A DNA stretch of 64,000 nt from Verrucomicrobiota bacterium (GTDB taxonomy: Bacteria > Verrucomicrobiota > Verrucomicrobiia > Limisphaerales > UBA9464). Location of the stretch: contig CANGKZ010000001.1 of the NCBI GenBank assembly GCA_947454705.1, positions 124,001 to 188,000 on the forward strand, given 5' to 3'. The position numbers and the translations under genes were made by a program. Positions 11,445 through 13,473 of the stretch are shown one piece after another (positions within the stretch are counted from its first letter, which is position 1; each line of letters begins with the position of its first letter). A model generated the notes under the pieces. The model saw nothing but the letters and a program-made list of their open reading frames with translations, made no database searches and had not been told where the DNA came from.

Positions 11445-12374
11445 ATGATAAGAATCCCCCGTTCACTCTGGATCTCCTGCGTTGCGCTGCTCGGCCTGGC
11501 GTCAGGCCCTTCGCTGTTGGCGGAGGACGACCAGTGCGGTGATTTCCAGAAAAGCTCGTTTTCCCTGAACCCGCGCCACGCGGCCAAGGGAGCCCCCACC
11601 GTAGGGAGCCTCGGGGCCATTACGCCCGTGATCACCTATCACGGCGGCGCGCTGATCGGAACGCCCACGGTGTACGTCGTTTGGTACGGCAATTGGAATC
11701 AAGGCAACGGCACCGACACCCCGGCCGGACAGCAGATCGTCCGCGATTTCCTCCAGTCGGTCGGCGGGTCGCCGTACTACAACATCAACACCACCTACTC
11801 CGTCTCCGGCAAGACCATCACCGGCAACGTCGTGTGGGGCGGTGAAACCACCGACACCGGATCCAAGGGCACGACCCTGACCGACACCGCGGTTCGCACC
11901 GTGATTGCCAATGCGATCACCGCCAAGAAGCTCCCCAACGACGCCAACGGCATCTACCTGCTGCTATCGTCCTCCAACGTCGCCGAAAGCTCCGGCTTCT
12001 GCTCCCGTTACTGCGGCTGGCACACCTACGGCTCGGTGAGCGGCAAGAAGATCCGCTACTCCTTTGTCGGCAACGCTGCGCGCTGCCTCAACGGATGCGC
12101 TGCGCAGACCGTGAGCCCCAACGGCAACGCCGGTGTGGACGGCATGCTCTCGGTGATCGCCCACGAACTCGAGGAAGCCACCACGGATCCCGACCTCAAC
12201 GGATGGTACGACAGCGCCGGCGCGGAAAACGGCGACAAGTGCGCCTGGACTTTTGGAGCCACCCAGGTGCTGCCGAACGGTGCCTACTACAACATGACCC
12301 TCGGCAGCCGCAATTACCTCATCCAGCGCAATCTCAAGATTGTGTCCGGTGTGAACTACTGCGTGATCCAATAA
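11445..12374 (+). CDS. EXORDIUM / phosphate-induced protein 1 (PHI-1) family secreted protein
   Basis: About 309 residues. The ATG at 11445 gives a typical signal peptide (MIRIPRSLWISCVALLGLASG...LLA); an ATG at 11406 adds 13 residues. The mature protein matches the plant EXORDIUM/PHI-1 family along its length: YHGGALIGTPTVYVVWYGNW, then IVRDFLQSVGGSPYYNINTTY, GNVVWGGETTD, GIYLLLSSSNV, FCSRYCGWHTY, VDGMLSVIAHELEEATTDP and a Cys-containing C-terminus. Plant members are cell-wall proteins linked to growth under low carbon; the molecular activity is unknown. The HELEE motif (near 12162) hints at a metal site. Seven cysteines in the mature part suggest disulfides. A strong terminator follows at 12414. 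Confidence 0.88.
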   Translation: MIRIPRSLWISCVALLGLASGPSLLAEDDQCGDFQKSSFSLNPRHAAKGAPTVGSLGAITPVITYHGGALIGTPTVYVVWYGNWNQGNGTDTPAGQQIVRDFLQSVGGSPYYNINTTYSVSGKTITGNVVWGGETTDTGSKGTTLTDTAVRTVIANAITAKKLPNDANGIYLLLSSSNVAESSGFCSRYCGWHTYGSVSGKKIRYSFVGNAARCLNGCAAQTVSPNGNAGVDGMLSVIAHELEEATTDPDLNGWYDSAGAENGDKCAWTFGATQVLPNGAYYNMTLGSRNYLIQRNLKIVSGVNYCVIQ

Positions 12375-12413
12375 TCCGGCGGTCCGGAGATTACAAATTC
12401 AGCCCTGTGGATG

Positions 12414-12439
12414 CTCCCCCGGTTCGCCGGGGGAGTTTT
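12414..12439 (+). terminator. Rho-independent terminator after the EXORDIUM-like gene
   Basis: A perfect 9-base stem (CTCCCCCGG / CCGGGGGAG) closes a TTCG tetraloop and is followed by TTTTCATTT. It begins 40 bases after the stop codon. This is the clearest intrinsic terminator in the window. Confidence 0.9.
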
Positions 12440-12490: not shown

Positions 12491-12640
12491 AACCACAGAT
12501 TCACACAGATTCACACAGATTGGAGGGGGAGAAAAGTAGTACGGCGCAGGCAGAACCTCCTAACCGTCTGCATGATTCATGACTCCGTCCGTTCCGCTCC
12601 TTTGAATCTGTGTTTATCCGTGTCCATCTGTGGTTAAACT
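12491..12640. repeat. Dispersed CATCTG-TTTATC repeat with short tandem CACAGATT copies
   Basis: At 12495-12520 the phrase CACAGATT(CA) recurs three times. At 12602-12640 lies ATCTGTGTTTATCCGTGTCC-ATCTGTGGTTAAACT. Relatives occur at 19457-19500 and 57331-57377 (both with GCGTTTATCTGCGTC). It is intergenic between convergent genes and contains no gene. Confidence 0.65.
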
Positions 12641-12645
12641 CTGCT

Positions 12646-13473
12646 TCAATTTCCAGAGGTCGGTTTCAGCAATCGATCGAGGACGGCCTGAAACTTTTTG
12701 ATCGGCTCCACGCCGGTGAAGATCTCTTCGGAACGGATCACGATTCCGGAATCGTCGCAGGTGCCGATGAGAAATGTCGGCGTTCCTCGGATCCCCATTC
12801 GATCTGCGAGGGCGAGGCTGCGACGGATCGGGTCGCGGTATCGATGACTCTCCATGCAGGCCCGAAACGGTTCCGCCTCGATCCCGATGGCCGAGATCCA
12901 CTTCGCTGACGACTCCGCAGAATAGGGAGATTGGTCCAGGTAGAGCAGGTCGTGCATGTCCCAGAACCGGCCCTGCTCCCCGGCGCATCGTGCGGCCTCG
13001 GACTTGGCCAGGGCATCGGCATCGTTGCGGTCCGGCAGATCGCGGAACAGCAGACGCACCTTCCCGGTCCGCAGGTACTGCTCCTCCAACTTGGGATACA
13101 CCTCGCGTTCAAACTCCGCGCAGTGCGAGCAGTTAAAATCGGAAAACACCACCACCGCGACGTGCGCGTTGGTGGAACCCCGGAAGGGCTCGCCGCGGAC
13201 ATTCAGGGTGACGAACGGCTTGGGTTCCTCGGCCGGGACCACATCCTTTCGCACGCCTGAACCCTGGATCTCCAGCCGGAGCTGACGCAGCTCCTCCATC
13301 AACATCCGCTGCCCCTCGCGAAGCTCGGCGATCTGTTTCTCCAGCGACTCGATGGTCGCGACCGACTTCGATCCCGGGGCCGTTGTCTCCGCAGCGACAC
13401 CGCGAAGAACCGATCCCAGCAAAAGCAATCCACACGCAACCGCACGCGAAGTCCGAAACCGAATCAAAGCCAT
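12646..13473 (-). CDS. DsbA-like exported thiol:disulfide oxidoreductase
   Basis: 275 residues. An N-terminal signal peptide (GLLLLGSVLRGVAA) is followed by a short coiled coil (IESLEKQIAELREGQRMLMEELRQ) and a DsbA/BdbD-type thioredoxin domain. The domain holds VVVFSDFNCSHCAEFEREVYPKL with the active-site CSHC (Cys115, Cys118), an inserted helical part (CAGEQGRFWDMHDLL), and the cis-Pro loop GIRGTPTFLIG. It should form or exchange disulfides in periplasmic proteins. Its 3' end faces the cysteine-rich EXORDIUM-like gene. No DsbB-like partner is present nearby. Confidence 0.9.
   Translation of the reverse strand: MALIRFRTSRAVACGLLLLGSVLRGVAAETTAPGSKSVATIESLEKQIAELREGQRMLMEELRQLRLEIQGSGVRKDVVPAEEPKPFVTLNVRGEPFRGSTNAHVAVVVFSDFNCSHCAEFEREVYPKLEEQYLRTGKVRLLFRDLPDRNDADALAKSEAARCAGEQGRFWDMHDLLYLDQSPYSAESSAKWISAIGIEAEPFRACMESHRYRDPIRRSLALADRMGIRGTPTFLIGTCDDSGIVIRSEEIFTGVEPIKKFQAVLDRLLKPTSGN

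Follow-up and report, generated by a model that had tools for sequence, protein, structure and literature searches.

We examined a 64,000-nucleotide stretch of the genome of a Verrucomicrobiota bacterium (contig CANGKZ010000001.1, positions 124,001 to 188,000; the whole of it is called the window here) that carries an intact gene of the EXORDIUM/PHI-1 family. The encoded protein has an HExxExxxD motif that is invariant among the bacterial members we aligned, its gene is linked to one for a DsbA-like thiol oxidoreductase, and its computed model weakly resembles the metzincin fold. We tentatively propose, with a confidence that stops a little short of even, that the protein may be a metal-dependent hydrolase that is secreted and braced by disulfides, and that it most likely cleaves extracellular or cell-wall protein as a peptidase. 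Predicted fold, invariant motif and linked thiol partner together provide a concrete, testable mechanism for a family whose biochemistry is not known, and in bacteria, where the candidate metal site is untouched and PHI-1 has natural partners, the family offers a first target for assays and mutants.

An intact PHI-1 protein and its invariant residues

The open reading frame (ORF) runs from an ATG at 11445 to a stop at 12374 and encodes 309 amino acids with no internal stop. Its product matches the Pfam family PF04674 (Phi_1) over residues 63–274 with 103.6 bits against a curated cut-off of 25 (E 1.5e-29), and both stretches that the original prediction quoted for this family are present letter for letter. 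The match covers positions 1–232 of the 276 in the profile and leaves the final 44 unaligned, though the protein runs on to residue 309; judged by its sequence, it is not a fragment. No NCBIfam model matched the protein at E 0.01, and a search of its 5.4-Mb genome found no second copy.

By inspection the N-terminus resembles a signal peptide, with RIPR, a hydrophobic LWISCVALLGLA and SLLA ahead of EDD, in line with the original prediction; a crude hydrophobicity rule finds a signal-like start in 72 of 80 bacterial members, a count that is partly circular because starts were picked with a similar rule. Eight cysteines are present (residues 12, 31, 186, 190, 214, 218, 266 and 306), of which the seven counted originally remain after the presumed cleavage. 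The strong terminator also claimed for the gene holds as a strong stem; the hairpin count, 1 observed against 1.4 ± 1.2 in shuffled sequence, is not above chance, and stem strength alone speaks for a terminator.

PF04674 matched all 80 bacterial members (the window protein and 79 further loci) in our alignment, termed A2. Since the relatives were fetched by patterns on VYV.WYG and FC..CGW, those columns are biased; the fetch patterns did not include HExxE, and the H193 column and those from H240 to D264 are unbiased. Invariant residues in A2 include C190, G191, W192, H193, C218, H240, E241, E244, D248, E261, D264, C266 and W268. The motif reads HExxExxxD, not HExxHxxGxxH, in 80/80 members; the metal site suggested earlier at HELEE is plausible. 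The 35 loci retrieved by a Pfam profile search all keep HExxExxxD as well, though several of them repeat A2 members or overlap; 15 have a stretch absent from A2, a count that itself required the motif. In the divergent Gemmatirosa protein the motif region reads HELDEAVTD. Three cysteines never vary in A2 (C190, C218 and C266), and three more are at least 90% conserved there (C186, C214 and C306), with C306 present in 64/80 members of the untrimmed alignment.

Predicted fold and candidate metal site

The model of the window protein has a predicted local distance difference test score (pLDDT) of 91.1 and a predicted template-modeling score (pTM) of 0.87. Rows 1–8 of a Foldseek search of the PDB with this model are metzincin-type proteases (ADAMTS4, TACE and others; best E 0.012), and VIA gave Z up to 8.5, its 50 rows being metzincin-type by title except 6o38, whose title says only chaperone-substrate complex. 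A second model, that of a distant member from another phylum (L057, Mizugakiibacter sediminis), matched a snake venom metalloprotease best in Foldseek (E 3.7e-3, probability 0.99) and reached a VIA Z of 9.4, with a root-mean-square deviation of 3.3 over 152 residues and rows again metzincin-type by title with the same exception. The elements of the window model follow in the order strand-helix-strand-helix-strand-strand-strand-helix, which we take to be the metzincin order; the strand TVYVVWYGNW would be the first of the metzincin-like core, and HELEE would lie on the helix that bears HExxH in metzincins. Among the rows listed, both predicted structures resemble metzincin proteases, if only weakly, above other solved folds. 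The predicted likeness to ADAM/reprolysin, snake venom P-I and archaemetzincin proteins comprises the core fold, the order of its elements and an HE pair on the corresponding helix, whereas the PHI-1 protein has HExxExxxD in place of HExxHxxGxxH and shows no sequence-profile similarity to them.

In the mechanism we propose, the mature domain would fold like the catalytic core of a metzincin protease, and the helix at residues 229–247 would present H240, E241 and E244. H240 and E244, together with D248, E261, D264 and perhaps H193, would hold one divalent metal, E241 would serve as the general base, and the conserved cysteines would brace the domain, presumably as disulfide pairs. What the data show is the family, the intact gene, the invariant residues and the linkage of the genes; the fold is a computation, and metal, catalysis, substrate, disulfide pairing and the roles of the partners are inferences.

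Several results weigh against this proposal. No Foldseek match of either model reaches E 0.001, the query-normalized TM-scores of metzincin matches are about 0.23–0.35 in the rows listed, and unrelated proteins stand among the Foldseek rows of the window model (MoaB at rank 9, others lower). A Z of 8–9 barely exceeds values reached by models without relatives, and the L057 model, built on 57 of the same 80 sequences, is not fully independent. The metzincin zinc motif is defined as HExxHxxG/NxxH/D; its HExxHxxGxxH form is absent from the window protein, which has HExxExxxD instead, and we know of no characterized metzincin with HExxE as its ligand set. An hhalign comparison with six bacterial reprolysin-like sequences found nothing (probability 0.1%; seven of 13 candidate loci had been omitted for having no HExxH frame under the filter used), no PDB metzincin was found with the sequence profile of the PHI-1 family, and a PDB search with the window sequence alone gave no match. 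Because sequence profiles show no similarity, we suggest that the protein works like a metzincin, not that it is one. No literature combining EXORDIUM with metzincins was found in a search that had subscription journals and preprints outside its reach and is no proof of absence in print. Separately, a Peptidase_M54 search of relatives matched 4 of 39 genomes.

What the PDB search with the family profile did return was microbial transglutaminase only (best 1iu4, E 0.055, around residues 254–290 of the window protein), and Transglut_prok matched one of the 80 members (E 0.0019). This weak local similarity, along with the departure of HExxE from peptidase motifs, could point to a metal enzyme of some other chemistry (glycan, ester or amide-transfer) that has nothing but the alpha/beta core in common with metzincins. 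We consider that decidedly unlikely, as the transglutaminase match spans 39 profile positions and aligns a phenylalanine to the catalytic histidine of that enzyme, and as metzincin-type domains make up most of the structure rows.

Partner genes and domain fusions

The peptidase-like proposal includes a thiol partner, a 275-residue DsbA-like protein encoded convergently just downstream of PHI-1 (Table 1). It matches Thioredoxin_4 with 104.9 bits against a cut-off of 23.2 (E 6.7e-30) and DSBA with E 1.1e-12, and by inspection has a signal peptide-like start and a coiled-coil-like segment. Its best NCBIfam match is the Rcas_1661 family thioredoxin-like (seleno)lipoprotein NF041057 (E 1.6e-34); its score of 119.5 bits falls short of the curated 190, and it is not a member by that model. 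Its own genome holds no DsbA-like paralogue at E 0.001. Selenocysteine in the partner was considered, after one TGA had been flagged in two DsbA homologues, and rejected, as the TGA in L152 is the terminal stop and the active pair there reads CSFC; L150 reads CSHC.

A DsbA-like gene adjoins PHI-1 with strong scores in 12 of the 80 loci, the window included, as judged with a profile for which ten of them were the source; when the window DsbA-like gene was the only tblastn query, it recovered the eleven other genes of this set, each with an E of at most 1e-48. The arrangement is convergent in the window, L009, L021 and L043; seven Holophagaceae have the gene upstream of PHI-1 and on the opposite strand, L078 has it downstream on the same strand, and L061 and L064 have weaker DsbA-like relatives. 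Among 56 relatives, 5 of the 6 genomes with PHI-1 have a close DsbA homologue (E at most 4e-58) versus none of the 50 others (Fisher 1.6e-6, a value that ignores kinship and rests on a cut-off set after the gap was seen); at E 0.001 the counts are 6/6 versus 3/50. The PHI-1 genome that has no close homologue (G407) is 76% complete, and in G401 and G394 the homologue is on a different contig from PHI-1. Across 396 Acidobacteriota, searched with a query that is itself a PHI-1 neighbor, the five best DsbA matches (at least 280 bits) all come from PHI-1 genomes and lie beside PHI-1, and the next, at 195 bits, comes from a genome without PHI-1. No match of that height is found in 12 of the 17 Acidobacteriota genomes with PHI-1, and at E 1e-25 matches occur in 6/17 of these versus 70/379 of the others.

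We conclude that PHI-1 has a real partner in the convergent DsbA-like gene, and that the two are linked more strongly than the original prediction could tell; the link is confined to one DsbA-like subfamily and to part of the PHI-1 family. In the window's lineage, the DsbA-like protein would form or correct the disulfides of PHI-1 in the periplasm before or during export. Telling in the other direction, three loci of one genus in the same family as the window (L010, L012 and L034) have no DsbA-like gene beside PHI-1 in their flanking DNA, and none was detected in 66 of the 80 loci.

Other PHI-1 branches have a DUF4440 neighbor, a secreted-looking, NTF2/SnoaL-like protein. Its gene lies within about 320 nucleotides downstream of PHI-1 in 24/80 loci (21 on the same strand), and a profile built from 12 of these genes matched nowhere else in these loci; seven of eight candidates scanned exceed the Pfam cut-off, L061 being the other. 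In many Proteobacteria the DUF4440 protein might act together with the enzyme, for example as an inhibitor, chaperone or adaptor. In two Acidobacteriales metagenome-assembled genomes (MAGs), DUF4440-like and distant DsbA-like genes stand side by side next to PHI-1 (L061:2098-3377 and L064:2554-3686), with a protein that by eye looks like a peroxiredoxin nearby.

PHI-1 also occurs fused to other domains: to TIG in L079 and to DUF7910 beta-trefoil-like repeats in L101 (both over the cut-off), and to B_lectin in L099 (30.7 bits, just below the cut-off of 32.4). L099 and L101 come from one Byssovorax MAG (G450) that has three PHI-1 copies. The TIG and lectin-like fusions are of an extracellular architecture and count for a secreted enzyme.

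Table 1 Features of the PHI-1 locus in the window (window coordinates)
Feature	Position	Strand	Basis
PHI-1/EXORDIUM-family gene	11445..12374	+	ORF; PF04674 E 1.5e-29; no second copy found in genome
Probable signal peptide, residues 1-26	11445..11522	+	By eye, cleavage after SLLA; low pLDDT in model blocks 1-30
Core strand TVYVVWYGNW, residues 75-84	11667..11696	+	Invariant G82, W84; strand 75-81 in model
CSRYCGWH, residues 186-193, with C190 and H193 invariant in 80/80	12000..12023	+	A2 alignment
Candidate metal/active-site motif H240-E241-x-x-E244-x-x-x-D248, helix 229-247	12162..12188	+	Invariant in 80/80; helix from model
E261-N-G-D264, E261 and D264 invariant, candidate ligands	12225..12236	+	A2 alignment
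Terminator-like hairpin	12413..12436	+	10 pairs, 8 G-C; hairpin scan
DsbA-like thiol oxidoreductase, 275 residues, Thioredoxin_4 domain	12646..13473	-	Convergent; Pfam, adjacency, co-occurrence
CSHC motif, candidate redox-active pair of the DsbA-like protein	13120..13131	-	Sequence

Between the PHI-1 and DsbA-like genes, positions 12491-12635 hold a dispersed palindromic repeat with 44-nucleotide arms that are 75% complementary; it has 42 further matches in its own genome, where in some cases a single copy accounts for two of them, one per arm, and congeners have shorter matches.

Plant members and distribution among bacteria

Plant EXORDIUM/PHI-1 and EXO-LIKE proteins (PF04674, IPR006766) share the Pfam family with the window protein and are secreted, as the window protein probably is. 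Our comparison with them is made on provisional sequences, with the Pfam model as a proxy. The provisional EXO sequence scores 417 bits over profile positions 2–276 and, unlike the bacterial members, appears to be without HExxE, and an EXL5-like fragment, also provisional, presumably keeps HELAE. HELEEATTDP, taken in the original prediction as part of the plant EXORDIUM layout, is rather the bacterial form, which we take to resemble some plant EXO-LIKE proteins. When the 15-residue motif stretch of the window protein is replaced by the EXO version, its score rises from 103.6 to 115.3 bits, and with the EXL-type HELAE version to 111.8 bits; provisional C-terminal pieces score 151.9 bits for EXO and 113.5 bits for EXL (HELAE). 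By these sequence scores the Pfam profile accepts both plant forms, with a small preference for the motif-less one, and in silico substitutions in the window protein cost it 1.4 (H240A), 1.2 (D264A), 2.3 (E261A) and 4.4 bits (H193A). These results fit a motif that part of the plant family carries and EXO lacks, the provisional sequences being leads, not proof.

Plant EXO and EXL proteins are reported to be secreted and EXO matters for growth (PMC2661892, PMC13103426). Multiple mutants of EXO/EXL have a root and hypocotyl elongation phenotype, and the biochemical function of the proteins was still called unknown in 2026 (PMC13103426). It is possible, though we doubt it, that PHI-1 is a non-catalytic extracellular binding or scaffold protein, whose H/E/D residues would coordinate a structural metal, for instance calcium, and which would bind wall glycan or matrix. 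The growth role of EXO despite its seeming lack of the motif (in the provisional sequence) fits such a protein and tells against an enzyme, as the role of the family may not need catalysis; the Byssovorax fusion with lectin-like repeats and the presence of ADAM22, a catalytically dead domain, among the best structural rows point the same way. Yet E241, general-base-like beside H240 and invariant in all aligned bacterial members, is probably more than a structural calcium site would normally require. Should the site prove catalytic, plant EXO may be a dead relative of an enzyme and its growth effects would be explained differently; the computed fold and the untouched candidate metal motif suggest that the family may have begun as a secreted metal-dependent enzyme.

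Within the window's phylum, only its own genome among 387 sampled exceeds the Pfam cut-off; a candidate second member, L003, was dropped, as its E of 9e-4 is below the cut-off and a frame search found no PHI-1 motif in it. The gene occurs in 6 of 58 near relatives, in none of seven congeners, in 17 of 396 Acidobacteriota genomes over the cut-off, and in none of 14 control genomes, so the family is not common in all bacteria. A wider scan of one genome per species (84,980 species) with two short peptide patterns gave 145 confirmed places, from which 79 loci were kept, assigned to phyla by record title: 41 in Acidobacteriota, 23 in Pseudomonadota, 9 in Verrucomicrobiota, 2 each in Armatimonadota and Myxococcota, and 1 each in Actinomycetota and Elusimicrobiota. 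None of the 79 has a stop within the match. PHI-1 is a rare and patchy bacterial trait; judged by the titles, many hosts live in soil, peat or freshwater. On the tree the phylum label has to change 17 times, against a possible minimum of 6, an excess that fits transfer among bacteria and also loss, paralogy or wrong binning.

As land plants are where the family is best known, one might imagine that the gene came recently from a plant or that plant DNA contaminates the assembly. We regard either as extremely improbable: the single copy sits within a 309-kb bacterial contig with its frame uninterrupted, the protein is 67% identical to that of a related Verrucomicrobium, with which it groups at a Shimodaira–Hasegawa-like approximate likelihood ratio (SH-aLRT) of 99 in an Acidobacteriota-rich tree of bacterial sequences only, and related genes occur in seven phyla by record title. 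Contamination was rejected on the position of the copy inside a bacterial contig and the placement with the Verrucomicrobium relative. For the opposite direction, a cotton study reports no algal homologues and one clade, III, in which each of its nine plant species is represented (PMC8481617). Taken with the bacterial distribution, this pattern makes it worthwhile to test whether land plants obtained the family early from bacteria. A broader scenario, speculative and on balance improbable, would make EXORDIUM/PHI-1 an unrecognized metzincin-like branch of the zincins, native to environmental bacteria and with a new ligand set of HExxExxxD plus acidic residues, which land plants acquired early from bacteria; one plant branch would have kept the enzyme while EXO/PHI-1 became a wall pseudoenzyme.

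Bacterial PF04674 members are not new. A 317-residue PHI1/EXO-like protein of Solibacter usitatus, also a member of this Pfam family, was reported in 2009 by Schroder et al. (PMC2661892). A literature search on horizontal transfer of the family that involves bacteria gave no match, and one on its transfer and land plants gave a single paper, on grapevine and spider mites. The window protein is in this sense an ordinary family member and not the first bacterial one. Unlike that report, the present set comprises a Verrucomicrobium member and 79 further loci in seven phyla, with a conserved motif, a predicted fold and partner genes; new here are the metzincin-like fold prediction, the seeming lack of the motif in the provisional EXO sequence, the DsbA-like partner and the DUF4440 neighbor. 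The original prediction fared well on family, completeness, rarity, a plausible metal site and the DsbA link; a bacterial member as such was already published, and HELEEATTDP is no feature of EXORDIUM proper.

A mobile element as carrier of the gene was considered and rejected: phages gave no match, 51 pattern matches in viral contigs yielded no confirmed one, and there were only two plasmid records. A conjugative plasmid of Bradyrhizobium elkanii from soybean nodules has a 51-residue PHI-1 match that includes the HELEE region (L179:2001-2153), at a place where the PLSDB gene table, itself incomplete, lists no gene. Tandem PHI-1 genes occur as two copies in Geothrix limicola (L100, G445:C8) and as four in an Acidobacteriota genome (G709:C1:227321-232230).
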